Positions 41,657-49,558 of a stretch of DNA of 64,000 nt are shown in pieces. The notes under the pieces were generated by a model that ran no database searches, was not told the DNA's origin, and worked only from the letters and a program-made list of their open reading frames with translations. How positions within the stretch are numbered: the stretch's first letter is position 1; each line of letters begins with the position of its first letter. Both the position numbers and the translations under genes were made by a program. Origin of the DNA: Bacteroidaceae bacterium (GTDB taxonomy: Bacteria; Bacteroidota; Bacteroidia; Bacteroidales; Bacteroidaceae); assembly GCA_024401225.1 (NCBI GenBank), contig JAKSLM010000003.1:1-64000 (forward strand), read 5' to 3'.

Positions 41657-41770
41657 ACATTTTGTATGGCATTTTCGGCAAAGATTTGACAAAATAATAG
41701 CGTAATACGACGTATTTTGGAAATAATGTAAGCAGTTTGTCTTCAAAATGTGTATTTTGTTATCTTTTTC

Positions 41771-41801
41771 TTGTTTATTACTTACATAATGCTTAACTTT
41801 G
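41771..41801 (+). promoter_or_regulatory. Promoter of the ATP-grasp operon
   Basis: TTG (41771-41773), 20 bases, TAACTTTG (41794-41801). Transcription should start near 41808, giving a 190-base leader. Confidence 0.75.
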
Positions 41802-41809
41802 CAGCGTCT

Positions 41810-42000
41810 TTTAGAACAAAAGGCATTTACACAACACAAAATAACAACAAACTGCAACCAAACACAAATAAAAATCAACAAACTGCAACCAAACACAAAC
41901 ACAAGGCGAAAGCCAACACAACACAAAAAAGAATTGCGACACAAGCACTAACAACTATTTTCCAACACAAACAACAAACACAAAAAAACATCTATTCTTT
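41810..42000 (+). promoter_or_regulatory. Unstructured C/A-rich leader of the ATP-grasp operon
   Basis: The leader is almost only A and C with few G, and it carries two exact copies of CAACAAACTGCAACCAAACA (41847 and 41877, 30 bases apart). Such leaders stay unfolded and, in organisms lacking Shine-Dalgarno use, favour strong translation. Protein binding at the repeats is possible. Confidence 0.6.
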
Positions 42001-43335
42001 ATGGCAGACGTAAGTATTAACGCTCTTGTCGACAGCAGAAACAGCGTCAACAAGTGGATGGAACGTTTCGGGGTAAGATTCGGAGTATACAAAAAAGGCG
42101 TATTCCGCGAGCAGCTTTTCCCTTTTGATTCAGTACCACGCATCATCAGCAAGAAGGACTGGGACTATCTTGAAAAAGGACTCCGACAGCGTGTTCAGGC
42201 ACTCAACATGTTTCTCTGGGACATCTACCATGACAAGAAGATCATCGCAGACGGCGTTGTACCTACGGAATTTGTCTACGCCTCGAAGGGCTACATGCCC
42301 GAGTGCGAAGGCATCGACCCTACGCTCAAAGTGTACGCCCACATAGCAGGCATCGACCTGGTGGAGGGCAAGAACGGGCAGTGGTACGTGCTGGAGGACA
42401 ACCTGCGCATACCAAGCGGAGCAAGCTACCCGATGATAGCACGCACCGTGACACGCAAGGTGACTCCTGAGGCTTTTGCAGACAATGCCGTGGCTGACAA
42501 CCGCGACTATGCCGACATGCTGCGACAGATGATGGAGGATGTCAACGAGGATCGCGGAATAGCCGTGATACTCACACCTGGCAGATACAATTCAGCATTT
42601 TTCGAACATTCATATCTCGCAGAGAAGACCGGCGCAACACTGGCCTATCCGGGCGACCTCATCGTGGAGGATAACATAGTGTACTACGAAGGCCTCTACC
42701 ACGAGAAGCAGAGGGTGGGAAGCATATACCGCCGCGTAAGCGATGAGTACATGGATCCACTCACCTTCGAGCCTGAGAGCCTGCTCGGCATACCGGGAGT
42801 GATGGAAGCCTACAAGGCTGGCAACGTGGCGCTGATCAATGCGATAGGCAACGGTGTGGCCGACGATAAGGGCATCTACTATTTCGTGCCTAAGATGGTG
42901 AAGTACTATCTGAACGAGGAACCAATACTGCAAAATGCGCCTACCTATCTCCCTTACTACAAGGAGGACTACGACTACATCCTCGCCAACATCGAAAAAC
43001 TGGTCATCAAGGATGTGGCTGAAGCTGGAGGCTACGGAGTGGTGTTCGGCAACGAGCTGACTCCGGAGAAGCTCGAGGAACTGAAGGCTCTCATCATCAG
43101 CGAGCCTCGCCGATGGATAGCACAGGAGGTGATAGACTTCAAGGATCTTGAGGTGCTCGACAGTGAGGGCAACGGTTCGATGCGAAAGGCCGATCTGCGC
43201 GCATTCGTGGTGAGCGGAAAGGAAACCCGCGTATGGGCATCAGGATTGACACGCTATGCAAGCAACCCGAACTCGTTTGTGGTGAACTCATCGCAGGGAG
43301 GCGGATTCAAGGACACTTGGGTAATGAACAAATAA
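42001..43335 (+). CDS. Circularly permuted ATP-grasp family protein
   Basis: The 444-residue protein belongs to the circularly permuted ATP-grasp type (DUF404/407), whose members are predicted to form amide or peptide bonds. Landmarks are LWDIYHDKKIIADGVVP, GIDLVEGKNGQWYVLEDNLRIPSGASYP (near 125), a DVNEDRGIAVILTPGRYNSAFFEH stretch, and the nucleotide-binding LVIKDVAEAGGYGVVFG. It is first in a five-gene operon with an alpha-E protein, a transglutaminase and two AstE-like proteins. That family context suggests synthesis or processing of a peptide-like modification; the substrate is unknown. Confidence 0.88.
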   Translation: MADVSINALVDSRNSVNKWMERFGVRFGVYKKGVFREQLFPFDSVPRIISKKDWDYLEKGLRQRVQALNMFLWDIYHDKKIIADGVVPTEFVYASKGYMPECEGIDPTLKVYAHIAGIDLVEGKNGQWYVLEDNLRIPSGASYPMIARTVTRKVTPEAFADNAVADNRDYADMLRQMMEDVNEDRGIAVILTPGRYNSAFFEHSYLAEKTGATLAYPGDLIVEDNIVYYEGLYHEKQRVGSIYRRVSDEYMDPLTFEPESLLGIPGVMEAYKAGNVALINAIGNGVADDKGIYYFVPKMVKYYLNEEPILQNAPTYLPYYKEDYDYILANIEKLVIKDVAEAGGYGVVFGNELTPEKLEELKALIISEPRRWIAQEVIDFKDLEVLDSEGNGSMRKADLRAFVVSGKETRVWASGLTRYASNPNSFVVNSSQGGGFKDTWVMNK

Positions 43336-43397
43336 CAATAACAAGGCAGACGAAGATGGAGAAGCCTATTATGAATTAAGAAAGACAAAGACGAACT

Positions 43398-44096
43398 ATG
43401 GTAAGAAGCAACACAATATCAGCCATGAAGGCCAATCGCCTGTTCTGGCTCGGACGATACGAAGAAAGAGTATACATGACGCTGCACCTGCTGCGCCAAT
43501 GCTACGACAAGATGATAGACGGCAACACAGCCGACTATGAGGAGTTCTGGTCGCGACTCGATTGCAGCGGAGCCTACTCCACTCCCGAGGATTTCCGCAT
43601 GGGTATGCTGTACGATGAACACAATCCAAACAGCATCATGTCGGAGATGAACTATGCAAAGGATAACGCCATCCTCCTGCGAGAGGACATCACGAGCGAG
43701 ACGCTCTCGTTCATCGAAATGTCGATCGCTCACATGAAGGCTTGCAAAGACAAATCGGAGACCAACATCACAGCCCTGCAGCCTATCACCGACTGGGGAC
43801 TCGCCTTCTGGGGATCTGTGTTCCAGCGCCTGCACAATCAGAAGATCATCGATCTCATCGTAATAGGTCGAAACATAGAATACATCGACATGCTGATACG
43901 CTTCGACTATCCGTTCGAGCGCATACGCCACGCCTACGAGGAGATAAAGTCGTACGGCAAGGATATGACACGCATATTCGACACCATGATCGAAGCTCAG
44001 CTCGACTCCCTGTTCACCAGCGAGAACTACGATCCGCTAAACATGGACTACAAGAACAAGGTGCTGAAGTACATCAATCAGCTGGTAATAGTGTAA
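43398..44096 (+). CDS. Alpha-E domain protein (DUF403)
   Basis: The 232-residue helical protein begins with the family hallmark MKANRLFWLGRYEERVYMTLHLLRQ. Alpha-E proteins occur almost always beside circularly permuted ATP-grasp proteins and transglutaminases, as here, and are thought to work in the same complex. The start at 43398 is MVRSNTISAM; the later Met at residue 10 is also possible. It follows the ATP-grasp gene by 62 bases. Confidence 0.88.
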   Translation: MVRSNTISAMKANRLFWLGRYEERVYMTLHLLRQCYDKMIDGNTADYEEFWSRLDCSGAYSTPEDFRMGMLYDEHNPNSIMSEMNYAKDNAILLREDITSETLSFIEMSIAHMKACKDKSETNITALQPITDWGLAFWGSVFQRLHNQKIIDLIVIGRNIEYIDMLIRFDYPFERIRHAYEEIKSYGKDMTRIFDTMIEAQLDSLFTSENYDPLNMDYKNKVLKYINQLVIV

Positions 44097-44112
44097 GGAC
44101 ATAAAGCAAGAA

Positions 44113-44868
44113 ATGAAACGTTACTTGTACAGCTACCAGACCATCGTGCGATTCTACGTGCAGGTGGACCGCCACTTCCTGAAGCTCAGATGCCAGCCTT
44201 CTGCCAGTGAGTATCAGACCATAGTGGACGAGAGCGTGGTGCTTCATCCTGTAGGTTTCCACATAAGCATAGGAACGGATGGATTCGGCAACCGCATCAT
44301 AACGGGCAGCTCGCTGATACCGCACGATTCGCTCGCCTACATCTCCTCCGGCATCGTGGAGCAGACGGACTACGCCATTCCTGATCCTTCGCCCCAGCCC
44401 TACTACCGATGCCACTCGGCACTCACGGAGCCATCGGACGAACTGAGGCTGATGGCAAAGGAGCACAAACAGGCTGCCGACCTCTGTCACGCTGTATACG
44501 AGGCGATGCACTACGAGCCAGGAAGCACCGATGTGCGCACCACAGCAGCCGAGGCCTTTGCACAGCGCAAGGGTGTGTGCCAGGACTTTGCACATATACT
44601 CTTAAGCCTGCTGCGTCTCAATGGTTACGCTGCACGCTATGTGAACGGACTGATAGTAGGCGAAGGTGCCACTCACGCATGGGTGGAGGTGCACGATGGG
44701 GAGAACTGGATAGCTTTCGACCCCACTCACAACTGCCAAGTGACTCATGGCTACATCAAGCTGGCTCATGGGCGCGATGCTAACGACTGCCCCGTATGCC
44801 GCGGTTCGATGTCGGGAAGCAACATCAGTCAGCAAACTGAAATAAAAGTAATAGTAAACGAGATATGA
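44113..44868 (+). CDS. Transglutaminase-like cysteine protease family protein
   Basis: The 251-residue protein has a transglutaminase core with Cys in AQRKGVCQDFAHILLSLLR, His in GATHAWVEVHDG and Asp in WIAFDPTHN, the full catalytic triad. The N-terminal 90 residues form a beta domain typical of these operon-linked members. Homologues are predicted to be peptidases or acyl-transferases acting on the product of the neighbouring ATP-grasp enzyme. No signal peptide is visible, so it is cytoplasmic. The next gene overlaps its stop (ATGA). Confidence 0.88.
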   Translation: MKRYLYSYQTIVRFYVQVDRHFLKLRCQPSASEYQTIVDESVVLHPVGFHISIGTDGFGNRIITGSSLIPHDSLAYISSGIVEQTDYAIPDPSPQPYYRCHSALTEPSDELRLMAKEHKQAADLCHAVYEAMHYEPGSTDVRTTAAEAFAQRKGVCQDFAHILLSLLRLNGYAARYVNGLIVGEGATHAWVEVHDGENWIAFDPTHNCQVTHGYIKLAHGRDANDCPVCRGSMSGSNISQQTEIKVIVNEI

Positions 44869-45854
44869 TAAAAGAAATAGTATCAACAGCTCTGCCTGTC
44901 GATGAGCGACTCCTGATTCGCAAGAATGTCATCAAGGGAGGAAAGGGGAAGAAGCGTTTCTGCATCGTAACCGGCACTCACGGCGACGAGCTGGAGGGAC
45001 AGATGGTGTGCTACGAGATGGCACGCCTGGTACAGAAGCATATTGATATGCTCGACGGAACAGTAGAGATCTACCCTGCCCTCAATCCGCTTGGCATCGA
45101 TACCATACAGCGAGGCGTGCCAAACTTCGACCTCGACATGAACCGTATATTCCCAGGCAGCGAGCAAGGCACGATGGCTGAGCAGACAGCCTTCCGCATC
45201 TGCAACGACCTGAAGGGAGCCGACATGGTACTTGACATCCACTCATCCAACCTCTACCTGCGCGAATCGCCACAGGTGCGCATCAACGTGCTGAACGAGG
45301 AGGACCTCGTGCCTTTCGCCCAGCATCTGGGAGTGGACTTCGTATGGGTACACGATGCTGCCACGGTGCTCGAAGCCACCCTTGCCCATTCGCTCAACTC
45401 GACCGGCACACGATGCCTCGTGGTGGAGATGGGAGTGGGCCAGCGCATCAACCACTACATGTGCTGCCACCTCGTGAAGGGCATCTTCAACCTGATGAAG
45501 GAGATGGGCATGTGGCTGGGCGACATCGACCTTACTGACATCACTACAGGACCATTGCTTCAGCCTATACGATGCAAGGGCAACCGCGTGACTTTCCTCA
45601 ACGCCGACTGCTCGGGAGTGTTCCTCACCGATGCCCGCACAGGCAAGATAGTGAGCAAGGGACAGAGCATCGGAACCATAGTCGACCCGCTTACGGGCAA
45701 GGTGCTTTCGGATGTCACATCGCCTATCGATGGATTCTTGTTTACCATACGCGCGTACCCTATAGTATATGAAGGCTCGCTCATGGCTCGCATATTCGAA
45801 TACAACGAAGAGGAGAAGCAAACCGTAGAAAACGTATCAGCAGCAGAACAATGA
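44865..45854 (+). CDS. AstE/aspartoacylase-like metallohydrolase (intact catalytic motifs)
   Basis: The 329-residue protein is of the succinylglutamate desuccinylase/aspartoacylase family, in the M14 carboxypeptidase fold. Zinc ligands are His39 and Glu42 in VTGTHGDELEG and the His in MVLDIHSSN; the catalytic Glu is in LVVEMGVG. NPLG...DLDMNRIFPG is the conserved Asn/Arg block. The C-terminal third is a beta domain. It should remove an acyl group from an amino acid or a peptide. Starts 4 bases inside the transglutaminase gene and overlaps the next gene by 4 bases. Confidence 0.88.
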   Translation: MIKEIVSTALPVDERLLIRKNVIKGGKGKKRFCIVTGTHGDELEGQMVCYEMARLVQKHIDMLDGTVEIYPALNPLGIDTIQRGVPNFDLDMNRIFPGSEQGTMAEQTAFRICNDLKGADMVLDIHSSNLYLRESPQVRINVLNEEDLVPFAQHLGVDFVWVHDAATVLEATLAHSLNSTGTRCLVVEMGVGQRINHYMCCHLVKGIFNLMKEMGMWLGDIDLTDITTGPLLQPIRCKGNRVTFLNADCSGVFLTDARTGKIVSKGQSIGTIVDPLTGKVLSDVTSPIDGFLFTIRAYPIVYEGSLMARIFEYNEEEKQTVENVSAAEQ

Positions 45855-46792
45855 GAAAGGAAACTATATTCAAGATGAAGTCGACCTATAGGGACGACTT
45901 TCGCATCGAAGGCTACTGGTTCGGTAGCGGCGAGAAGACCGCCTGCATCGTAGGTCCTATGCGAGGTGATGAGGTGCAGCAGCAGTATGTGTGCTCACAG
46001 ATTGTGAAGGTGCTGCAGGAGAAGGAAGGCAGAGGTGAGATAGCCGAAGGCAAGAGCATACTCGTCATCCCATCGTGCAACCCATTCTCAATGAATGTGG
46101 GTAGACGCTTCTGGGCAATGGACAACACCGACATCAACCGTATGTTTCCGGGTTACGATCAGGGAGAGACAACACAACGCATATCAGCAGCCATCTTCAA
46201 GCACATAGAAGGGTTCCGCTACGGCATGCAGCTTGCATCCTACTACGTACCGGGCGAGTTCGTGCCTCACGTACGAATGCTCAGCACAGGCTACGAGGCC
46301 ATCGATGAAGCAAGGCTGTTCGGATTTCCATACATAACCACTCGCACTCCGCTACCTTTCGACACCACTCTGCTCAACTACAACTGGCAGATATGGAACA
46401 CAGCAGCATTCAGCATCTACGCGGGTCGTACGGACCACATCGATGCAGCCACATCGCAGCAGACGGTGGATGCCGTGATCCGATTCCTCTATAACACCCA
46501 CACCTTCGTGAACCCGAGCGATGAGGCACCCGTACAGCCTGGATTCAACTCAGGCTTCATAAACGAAGACAACCTGGAGTCGGTCACAGCTCATCATGCA
46601 GGAATCTACGTTCGCAAGCACACAGCAGGCGACAGCGTGATGCCGGGCGAAGTACTCGCACACATCATCCATCCATACGATGGCCGCATACTCGAAGAGG
46701 TGCGATGCGAAAGCGGCGGACTGGTGTTCTTCTCTCACCACAGACCAATGGTGTATCAGAACGCCCTGCTCTACAAGATAAAGACTTCATAG
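45851..46792 (+). CDS. AstE/aspartoacylase-like protein lacking catalytic residues
   Basis: The 313-residue protein aligns with its upstream neighbour. CIVGPMRGDEVQQQ replaces the zinc motif CIVTGTHGDELEG, so the ligand His is Arg38. The second zinc His (DIHS) is gone (GMQLASYY instead), and the catalytic Glu block is not recognisable. The structural NPFSMN...NTDINRMFPG block is kept. It is therefore likely to be a non-catalytic partner of the first enzyme, for example in a heterodimer. Last gene of the operon, coupled by ATGA to the one before. Confidence 0.82.
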   Translation: MRKETIFKMKSTYRDDFRIEGYWFGSGEKTACIVGPMRGDEVQQQYVCSQIVKVLQEKEGRGEIAEGKSILVIPSCNPFSMNVGRRFWAMDNTDINRMFPGYDQGETTQRISAAIFKHIEGFRYGMQLASYYVPGEFVPHVRMLSTGYEAIDEARLFGFPYITTRTPLPFDTTLLNYNWQIWNTAAFSIYAGRTDHIDAATSQQTVDAVIRFLYNTHTFVNPSDEAPVQPGFNSGFINEDNLESVTAHHAGIYVRKHTAGDSVMPGEVLAHIIHPYDGRILEEVRCESGGLVFFSHHRPMVYQNALLYKIKTS

Positions 46793-46795
46793 CAA

Positions 46796-46879
46796 CAAGA
46801 CAAAAAAATTACTGCATAGCAGGAAGACAAAAAAGATTACTGCATAGCATCAAGACATAAGGTAATTACTGCATAGTAG
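46796..46879. repeat. Three tandem copies of a 27-29 base unit
   Basis: Units AAGACAAAAAAATTACTGCATAG, AAGACAAAAAAGATTACTGCATAG-like and AAGACATAAGGTAATTACTGCATAG start at 46796, 46823 and 46851, each with ATTACTGCATAG at the end, directly after the ATP-grasp operon. Confidence 0.85.
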
Positions 46880-46974
46880 CAGCAACATATAAACAATGGT
46901 TTTTTGCATTGTTCTACGCATAGGAACTATTTTGGGTATTATTGTTTTATCACTTTCATAAGTTAATGGAAGAA

Positions 46975-47066
46975 TATATTTGCGTCCGACTACGTCTCAT
47001 GCTGAAATAGCACGCAAACGCAGTCAAGAACACCCCGATGCCGTGAGGCATTGGGGTTGTTTTTTT
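46975..47066 (+). ncRNA. Candidate small RNA, about 80 bases
   Basis: TATATTTG at 46975-46982 is followed about 47 bases later by a strong terminator (AACACCCCGATGCC / GGCATTGGGGTTGTT, 47029-47061, then six T). No open frame of use lies between. The -33 element is weak. The unit resembles a short independent transcript, predicted 46989-47066. Confidence 0.5.
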
Positions 47067-47587: not shown

Positions 47588-49558
47588 TTATTTCTTCACA
47601 TTCATGCTGACCTTGACCATGTAGATGATGATAGCAATATAAACCACGATGGAGAGGAGTTCGCTCATAGGGTTGCTCCACCAGCCTTCGTAGTCGAAGC
47701 TTACGCCGCAGAAACGTATTGCTGCGCTCACCACACCCATCAAGGCTCCACCAGCAATGAATCCGGATGCAAGCAAGGTGCCCTTCTCGCCTCGTGCATT
47801 GTTGAGCGTAGCATCAGCAGAGCGTGAGGTAACGTACCAATTGACTGCACCACCCACGAGGATTGGGAGGTTGAGCTCGAGCGGGATGAACATACCGAGA
47901 GCAAATGCGAGTGCAGGTACCTTGAAGAGGGTGAGCACGATGGCAATAGCAGCACCGATGCCGTAGAGAAGCCAAGGAGCACCCTGACCCGACATGAGTG
48001 GTTCGATGACTGCAGCCATAGCATTTGCCTGAGGAGCTGCAAGAGTAGAGTTAGGACCAAAGCCGTAGGTCTTGTTGAGAATCATCATGACTCCTGCCAC
48101 GGTAGCAGCCGACACGAGGACTCCAAGGAACTTCCAGGTCTCCTGCTTCTGAGGCGTGCTGCCCAACCAATAGCCAGTCTTGAGGTCGGTGATGAAGGCG
48201 CCCGCAGTAGAGAGGGCTGTACAGGTCACACCTCCCATGATCATTGCTGCCACCATGCCGCTTGTGCCGTTGAGGCCGCAAGCCACGAGCACTACTGATG
48301 CAAGGATGAGAGTCATGAGAGTCATTCCCGATACTGGGTTGGAACCGACGATTGCGATTGCATTGGCTGCAACGGTAGTGAACAGGAAGGCGATAACGCA
48401 CAGAAGGAGGAGAGCAACGACTGTGAACTTAATGCTGCCACCCATCACTCCAAGATAGAAGAAGAGGCCTGTGCAAAGCACGGTAAAGATGATGCCAAAC
48501 GAGAGCCACTTCATAGGGATGTCGCGCTGTGTGCGTGGAGTCTTGGCAGCTGCTGCCGCATCCTTCTTGCCACCGAGTTCGCGGCCTGCAAGCGATACTG
48601 CATCCTTGATGATCGGCCAACTCTTGATGATGCCGATGATGCCGGCCATCGCGATGCCTCCGATACCGATACTCTTGGCATACTTGAATATCTGTTCGGC
48701 ACTTGCCTCAGCAGCCACGACGCCTTCGCTTATCTCAAGTCCTGGAAAGAGGAGCGAGATGCCAGGCACGATAACCCACCACACGAGCATACTGCCAAGG
48801 CAGATGATGAATGCATACTTGAGACCGATGATGTAACCCATACCAAGCACAGCTGCACCGGTATTGATCTTGAACACGAGCTTAGCCTTCTCTGCAAGCC
48901 ATTCGCCTCCAGGGATGGCACGCGAAGTGAAGTTCTCGTTCCAGAGTCCGAAGCTCGCTACAACGAAGTCGTAAAGACCTCCGATGATGCCGGCAAAGAG
49001 GAGTGGCTTGACCTGATCGCCGCCCTTCTCACCGCTCACGAGCACCTGAGTAGAAGCTGTTGCCTCAGGGAATGGGTACTTTCCATGCATATCCTTTACG
49101 AAATACTTGCGGAATGGAATCATGAACAATACGCCAAGTATACCGCCGAGCAACGAACTGATGAACACCTGCATGAAGTTGACTGTAAGCTCTGGATACT
49201 TTGCCTGCAGAATGTAGAGAGCAGGGAGTGTGAATATCGCGCCAGCAACAATCATTCCCGAGCAGGCACCGATGCTCTGAATCATAACGTTCTCACCAAG
49301 TGCGTTCTTGCGCTTTGTAGCACTTGCCACGCCTACCGCGATGATGGCAATAGGGATGGCTGCCTCAAACACCTGTCCTACCTTAAGACCAAGGTAAGCA
49401 CTGGCAGCACTGAACAGCACAGCCATGAGCAAGCCCCATACCACCGACCACACGGTAACCTCGCGCGGAGCGGACTCTGGGTGCATCAATGGCACGTATT
49501 CCTCGCCTTCGCGCAGTTCGCGCATGGCGTTTTCAGGTAATCCTTTGTTTTCTTCCAT
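47588..49558 (-). CDS. OPT family oligopeptide transporter
   Basis: The 656-residue inner-membrane protein has about 15 hydrophobic segments and starts with a hydrophilic cap (MEENKGLPENAMRELREGEEYVPLM). SAASAYLGLKVGQVFEAAIPIAIIAVG and the NPVSGMT motif are typical OPT features. It should import small peptides or peptide-metal chelates using the proton gradient. It lies downstream of mdh but a strong terminator (49576-49612) lies between, 17 bases before its ATG. Confidence 0.92.
   Translation of the reverse strand: MEENKGLPENAMRELREGEEYVPLMHPESAPREVTVWSVVWGLLMAVLFSAASAYLGLKVGQVFEAAIPIAIIAVGVASATKRKNALGENVMIQSIGACSGMIVAGAIFTLPALYILQAKYPELTVNFMQVFISSLLGGILGVLFMIPFRKYFVKDMHGKYPFPEATASTQVLVSGEKGGDQVKPLLFAGIIGGLYDFVVASFGLWNENFTSRAIPGGEWLAEKAKLVFKINTGAAVLGMGYIIGLKYAFIICLGSMLVWWVIVPGISLLFPGLEISEGVVAAEASAEQIFKYAKSIGIGGIAMAGIIGIIKSWPIIKDAVSLAGRELGGKKDAAAAAKTPRTQRDIPMKWLSFGIIFTVLCTGLFFYLGVMGGSIKFTVVALLLLCVIAFLFTTVAANAIAIVGSNPVSGMTLMTLILASVVLVACGLNGTSGMVAAMIMGGVTCTALSTAGAFITDLKTGYWLGSTPQKQETWKFLGVLVSAATVAGVMMILNKTYGFGPNSTLAAPQANAMAAVIEPLMSGQGAPWLLYGIGAAIAIVLTLFKVPALAFALGMFIPLELNLPILVGGAVNWYVTSRSADATLNNARGEKGTLLASGFIAGGALMGVVSAAIRFCGVSFDYEGWWSNPMSELLSIVVYIAIIIYMVKVSMNVKK

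Follow-up and report, generated by a model that had tools for sequence, protein, structure and literature searches.

The locus described here raises the question of what an ATP-grasp/alpha-E/transglutaminase core produces, and it does so in a particular form: what do two AstE/AspA-fold proteins, one of them apparently dead, do beside such a core? The core families are known from the Anbu operon (ATP-grasp, alpha-E, transglutaminase and Anbu; Iyer 2009 and Valas and Bourne 2008, as cited in PMC5666114 and PMC6376114). In their passages on this operon, both papers state, citing Iyer 2009, that the core is predicted to make or modify a peptide, in line with the peptide-like modification invoked by an initial sequence-only reading of our locus. 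The window analysed here is a stretch of 64,000 nucleotides from a Bacteroidaceae genome, and it carries the following features:

41771..41801, + strand: Bacteroidota-type promoter, TTG-N20-TAACTTTG, read from the sequence
41802..42000, + strand: A/C-rich untranslated leader, not conserved in relatives
42001..43335, + strand: circularly permuted ATP-grasp protein of the type B clade, predicted carboxylate-amine ligase (PF14403 CP_ATPgrasp_2, 2e-139)
43398..44096, + strand: short alpha-E protein (PF04168 Alpha-E, 1.9e-20, model positions 6-164 of 294)
44113..44868, + strand: transglutaminase-fold protein with intact Cys156-His188-Asp203 (PF01841 Transglut_core, 2.2e-18)
44865..45854, + strand: AstE1, AstE/AspA-fold zinc hydrolase with predicted catalytic residues intact (PF24827 AstE_AspA_cat, 1.2e-22)
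45851..46792, + strand: AstE2, apparent AstE/AspA-fold pseudoenzyme (PF24827 AstE_AspA_cat, 1.1e-7)
47032..47066, + strand: terminator-like hairpin with an 11-pair stem and a 4-base loop (hairpin 47032-47057), then a T run

The five open reading frames span 42001-46792 on the + strand, and their coordinates and Pfam matches agree with the five co-directional genes of these families that had been named from the sequence. Genes 1 and 2 are separated by 62 bases and genes 2 and 3 by 16, and the transglutaminase/AstE1 and AstE1/AstE2 junctions each overlap by 4 bases, which confirms what had been read for the last three genes. Elsewhere, 4-base overlaps were found at 41 of 72 alpha-E/transglutaminase, 51 of 77 transglutaminase/AstE1 and 32 of 79 AstE1/AstE2 junctions. 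None of the five proteins has a strongly hydrophobic stretch (top 19-residue mean 1.11), which is compatible with a cytoplasmic location.

The physical clustering of the five genes was explored through patterns taken from an AstE2 alignment and sought in one-per-species genomes. The search gave 326 confirmed relatives, the best 80 of which were retained (246 others lie outside the set; the 80 contain 76 different AstE2 cores, and all 80 titles name Bacteroidota). Seventy of the 80 loci carry all five genes, co-directional and in the order of the window, although in one of these the ATP-grasp gene is spread over two frames; in the other ten the genes present keep the order and the contig ends before the rest. 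The nearest named locus, from Candidatus Minthosoma caballi (L057), a Bacteroidales, encodes an AstE2 that is 80% identical. The ATP-grasp family was also sought in 295 genomes of the order, where ten were over the cut-off, the window included, and four more matches under it were left out. Seven of the ten are of the five-gene kind (counting the window and one cut inside AstE1) and three of the classic kind. Besides the window, five of the six five-gene order-mates have all five genes, the sixth being the one cut inside AstE1, as do eight of nine family-mates, the ninth being cut; the locus, order-mate and family-mate sets overlap in genomes. Because the same order recurs in 70 of the 80 named loci and again in order-mates for which the ATP-grasp gene was the sole query, it is not due to chance. 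The AstE pair is fixed with the ATP-grasp/alpha-E/transglutaminase core of type B. The conserved-neighbourhood check in Bacteroidales thus upholds the tight link proposed in the sequence-only reading, and the variable linkage named there as its refuter was not seen.

A hidden extra gene was rejected, since the commonest flanking family of at least 110 codons occurs in 15 of the 80 loci and the commonest small peptide frame (25-110 residues, within 1.2 kb) in nine; the flanking families of the 80 loci include no conserved transporter or tailoring gene. The OPT-family transporter gene downstream of the operon (window 47588-49558) was discarded as a partner: it is encoded on the opposite strand, and a search of the 44 other genus genomes at E 1e-100 gave no relative, against AstE1 in 12 of 45 genus genomes; this transporter may be a recent arrival. 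The AstE2 line was found in 10 of 201 family genomes, the window included, and, among 345 genomes sampled across the phylum, in the window genome only; five other phylum genomes match AstE2 with E between 3.9e-23 and 3.4e-21, as ordinary AstE proteins do. In the genus-mate G1165, the operon and the upstream methyltransferase gene are on different contigs. Such patchy occurrence looks like the outcome of repeated loss or transfer. Carriage by phages was dismissed, since none of 39 pattern matches in viral contigs is a relative of AstE2, and an anti-phage defence role was set aside as none of the five proteins has a PADLOC match.

The ATP-grasp protein is a clear family member (465 bits against PF14403, cut-off 32; E 2.4e-114 against the solved relative 3n6x). 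In a tree of this family, it falls into a clade of 21 five-gene rows with support 100/100, apart from 36 others (31 other Bacteroidota and five Proteobacteria); for this tree, the program warned of long branches and a bootstrap not fully settled. Core residues are common to type B and 26 non-B rows, and 47 positions are specific to type B, so that the substrate may differ from that of the Anbu system. The alpha-E protein scores 74 bits against PF04168 (cut-off 20.8) over part of the model only (6-164 of 294); the median length of alpha-E frames in type B is 239 codons (n=72), and other frames of more than 250 codons have 309-464 (n=19). The transglutaminase-fold protein also matches PF08379, and over 78 rows its triad holds C in 75 (three rows gapped), H in 77 (one gapped) and D in all 78.

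Members of the AstE/AspA family cleave an amide that adjoins a free carboxylate. The labels zinc ligand, general base and carboxylate binder are given to residues of AstE1 and AstE2 on the assumption that both follow aspartoacylase. AstE1 has the H-x2-E, distal H, N-R pair and general base E of AstE/AspA hydrolases and in this shares the catalytic set of DoeB, aspartoacylase and succinylglutamate desuccinylase. Over 80 rows, H39 and E42 are each present in 78 (the other two are gapped), H126 in 79 (one gapped) and E188 in all 80, and every ungapped row has the H, E, H ligands and general base E by which we recognised a zinc hydrolase. AstE1 scores 56.8 bits against NCBIfam DoeB (cut-off 402.7), and its solved relatives include the N-acetyl-diaminobutyrate deacetylases 6twl and 6twm.

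AstE2 belongs to the same family (PF24827, 32 bits, cut-off 25) but differs from its zinc hydrolases in having neither histidine nor the base. At the H39, E42 and H126 columns of AstE1 it has R38, E41 and A129, each in 81 of 81 rows, the R38 count being partly built in, as one seed pattern contains this residue and 79 of the 80 loci carry that seed. At the E188 column it has Tyr190 in 80 of 81, giving R, E, A and Tyr where a zinc hydrolase has H, E, H and E. These columns were confirmed by profile-profile alignment to AstE1 (match probability 99.8), and three solved chains align H opposite R38. In 14 loci found by other routes (five order-mates via the ATP-grasp gene and nine family-mates by profile; eight share their AstE2 core with one of the 80 and six are new), R38 was seen in 14, A129 in 13, with T in the remaining one, and Tyr190 in 14. 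AstE2 keeps the N-R pair (N96, R97) and R86, and its own near-invariant residues include R38, Q127, H140, N176, N178, W179 and Q180.

Loss of the zinc site in AstE2 leaves at most one zinc hydrolase in the operon. The two acyl-removing AstE enzymes of the sequence-only reading do not stand, since all, or almost all, of the AstE2 rows examined are without the base and without two of the three ligands for zinc; residue states and profile alignment alike led us to reject two active enzymes. The alignments point instead to AstE1 as the enzyme and AstE2 as a conserved, apparently dead pseudoenzyme. AstE proteins of other Bacteroidia are catalytically intact in 34 of 34 rows (31 different), and AstE1 and AstE2 cluster together against these 34 with support 99/97, which would fit an old duplication, with the caution that the AstE2 branch is long. 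Judged by mean identity over 67 rows (AstE2 62%, alpha-E 53%, transglutaminase 48%, in loci selected through AstE2), AstE2 is under constraint. dN/dS values, computed between the window and L057, L058 and L061 only, were set aside, synonymous sites being saturated in many comparisons. The partial correlation of pairwise distances between AstE1 and AstE2, 0.48 before any significance test, is at the top of ten gene pairs (next 0.42) and would be compatible with a physical pair.

How does this operon relate to the Anbu operon? The window has all three core families, in the core order of the three classic order-mates and of a Klebsiella record. It differs in having AstE1-AstE2 and no Anbu, in an ATP-grasp protein of a separate 100/100 clade and in an alpha-E protein that, as in type B generally, is about 80 residues shorter. 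None of the five operon proteins matches a proteasome family in Pfam, and PF00227 has no match in the window genome (84% complete). Each of the three classic (non-type-B) operons over the cut-off in the order is adjoined by a proteasome-type gene. No AstE gene lies in the stretch read at any of 20 further Bacteroidota ATP-grasp loci; five of these have Anbu and 15 have neither (nine with the core and no detected Anbu, six with the ATP-grasp gene only). The co-directional frames of most of these 15, judged without a Pfam search of the unlabelled ones, show no obvious Anbu-sized neighbour after the core. In four of the five Bacteroidota loci with Anbu, its gene is not the last one but sits between those for alpha-E and transglutaminase, and three of five plasmid loci have no Anbu. 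A plain one-slot swap of Anbu for AstE is weakened by the 15 of 20 loci that have neither, and the same count implies that the core does not always have a hydrolase as its neighbour. The AstE pair likely takes Anbu's place in part only: Anbu is one, inconstant partner of the core, and in type B the constant partner is AstE. Searches of open-licence literature gave no paper whose title or opening abstract lines describe the AstE version; Iyer 2009, outside that scope, may already show it.

Three further observations concern the wider family. Many Bacteroidota loci (L180-L197) have the core with neither Anbu nor AstE detected, which would leave room for other kinds of partner. In some Bacteroidota, an additional match to the circularly permuted ATP-grasp family lies in a frame of 857-905 residues, about twice the usual length and thus probably a fusion with another domain (G565:C9, G859:C1, G531:C15, G910:C91, G518:C5, G836:C12, G781:C10, G795:C13). 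Four successive genes on a 91-kb Enterobacter roggenkampii plasmid (L178) are, in turn, an ATP-grasp gene, an alpha-E gene, a transglutaminase-family gene of 3.3 kb and another ATP-grasp gene.

The expression signals of the operon are shared with its relatives in part. The site at 41771-41801 was named after what we take to be the Bacteroidota promoter consensus. In 65 upstream regions (the window and 64 loci with enough upstream sequence), a TAnnTTTG box within 300 bases was found in 56, against 11.7 in base-shuffled copies, and the box together with a full TTTG box at a spacing of 17-23 bases in 23, against 0.6. The promoter described in the sequence-only reading is visible in the window and the A/C-rich leader is real there, but the leader is not conserved: A+C content in its final 120 bases is 79% in the window and 56% on average over the 65 rows. 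With this and no Rfam match at E 0.1, the idea that the leader is a regulatory element common to these operons was abandoned. The promoter and the first part of the leader are spanned by an imperfect inverted repeat of 22 bases with 73% complementarity (window 41732-41855). Just past the last gene and ahead of the terminator-like hairpin, a 28-base repeat (AAAAAAATTACTGCATAGCAGGAAGACA type) occurs three times in tandem (46790-46886). Terminator-like sites in the region are not in excess (5, against 5.7 in shuffles).

Two other systems offer partial parallels. Cyanophycin ligase contains an ATP-grasp domain. AstE1 matches 8ein, which with 8eip we take to be the cyanophycin dipeptide hydrolase, weakly and C-terminally (E 5e-6), and the best TIGR02068 (cyanophycin synthetase) score in the window genome (84% complete) is 118 bits, against a cut-off of 850. 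The likeness is of an AstE fold acting next to a ligase system, since in cyanophycin clusters AstE-fold proteins split beta-Asp-Arg dipeptides, as set out in the relevant part of PMC10206079. The RimK/RimB and Rlo systems, in the sections of PMC12239564 devoted to them, likewise pair an ATP-grasp ligase-type protein with a hydrolase, but the ATP-grasp family is another one, an aspartic protease stands where the window has AstE, and the Rlo transglutaminase is inactive and membrane-bound. Among the five operon proteins, no Pfam match at E 0.001 was found to a retropepsin-like protease or a RimK-type ATP-grasp.

We tentatively propose, with a probability of about 0.4, that the operon is a form, with AstE, of those ATP-grasp/alpha-E/transglutaminase systems of which the Anbu operon is the best known, and that it makes an amide product, which AstE1 cuts with the help of AstE2. 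The ATP-grasp protein, probably with alpha-E, would activate a carboxylate as acyl phosphate and join it to an amine, giving an amide-linked peptide or conjugate. This ligase step is suggested by family membership and by the Yersinia Anbu-operon homologue, which frees phosphate from ATP according to the biochemical part of PMC6376114; the same part reports no detected peptidase activity for Anbu and no stable complex with its operon partners. The transglutaminase-fold cysteine enzyme may then trim or transfer the product, and AstE1, as a zinc amidohydrolase, would cleave the amide bond next to a residue whose carboxylate is free. AstE2, with its carboxylate binders kept and its zinc site gone, could be the non-catalytic substrate-binding or regulatory subunit of AstE1. 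Gene complement, fixed linkage, residue states and the lack of Anbu in the window genome are observed; we infer the reactions, the AstE1-AstE2 complex, the substrate and the assumption of Anbu's job by the AstE pair; a cycle of ligation and removal is possible.

The ligase might, as a tentative alternative, make a small molecule, a dipeptide-like metabolite or N-acyl amino acid, with AstE1 as a biosynthetic processing or deprotecting step rather than a reversal and AstE2 as a scaffold. The deacetylases 6twl and 6twm among the relatives of AstE1 act on small molecules, and the operon has neither a conserved sixth gene nor a small peptide frame; however, transglutaminase-fold and alpha-E partners fit a simple dipeptide route poorly, and such a pathway would sit oddly with the missing transporter or tailoring gene. 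We consider it unlikely that the product is a nitrogen store, a nitrogen-rich amide made under nitrogen limitation from which AstE1 frees amino acids as in cyanophycin breakdown. The AstE-fold dipeptidase of cyanophycin clusters would fit this, as would regulation: in the expression data of PMC8050072, P. putida PP_2685 (proteasome-type) and PP_2688 (ATP-grasp) rise by log2 4.44 and 3.99 on nitrate versus ammonium, and the B. cenocepacia homologues are assigned to the NtrC regulon in the relevant section of PMC5491218. Yet these data come from Proteobacteria and the classic type, the expression section of PMC5666114 reports Anbu-operon genes unchanged under various other conditions, and no match in the window genome reaches the cut-off for cyanophycin synthetase.

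Less probable still is an AstE2 that is active through zinc-independent chemistry or that inhibits AstE1. Its own near-invariant residue set is more than decay would leave, but would equally fit a binding interface, and no precedent was found in the literature searched. To return to our preferred reading, a bolder and rather doubtful extension of the amide-cutting AstE1-AstE2 pair would make it a heteromeric zinc 'eraser': recognition of a tag or modified end would fall to the dead subunit and its removal to the live one, pointing to reversible peptide conjugation in Bacteroidales. If true, this 'eraser' would be an M14-like pair in the position that a proteasome-like particle has in some other bacteria.

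This operon of gut Bacteroidales offers a new handle on the products of the core ligases. Here the core is naturally tied to a well-understood hydrolase fold and a pseudoenzyme, which makes the substrate class predictable: an amide that adjoins a free carboxylate. Both AstE1 itself and an inactive form of it could serve as tools to trap and identify the product, so that the question is directly testable.
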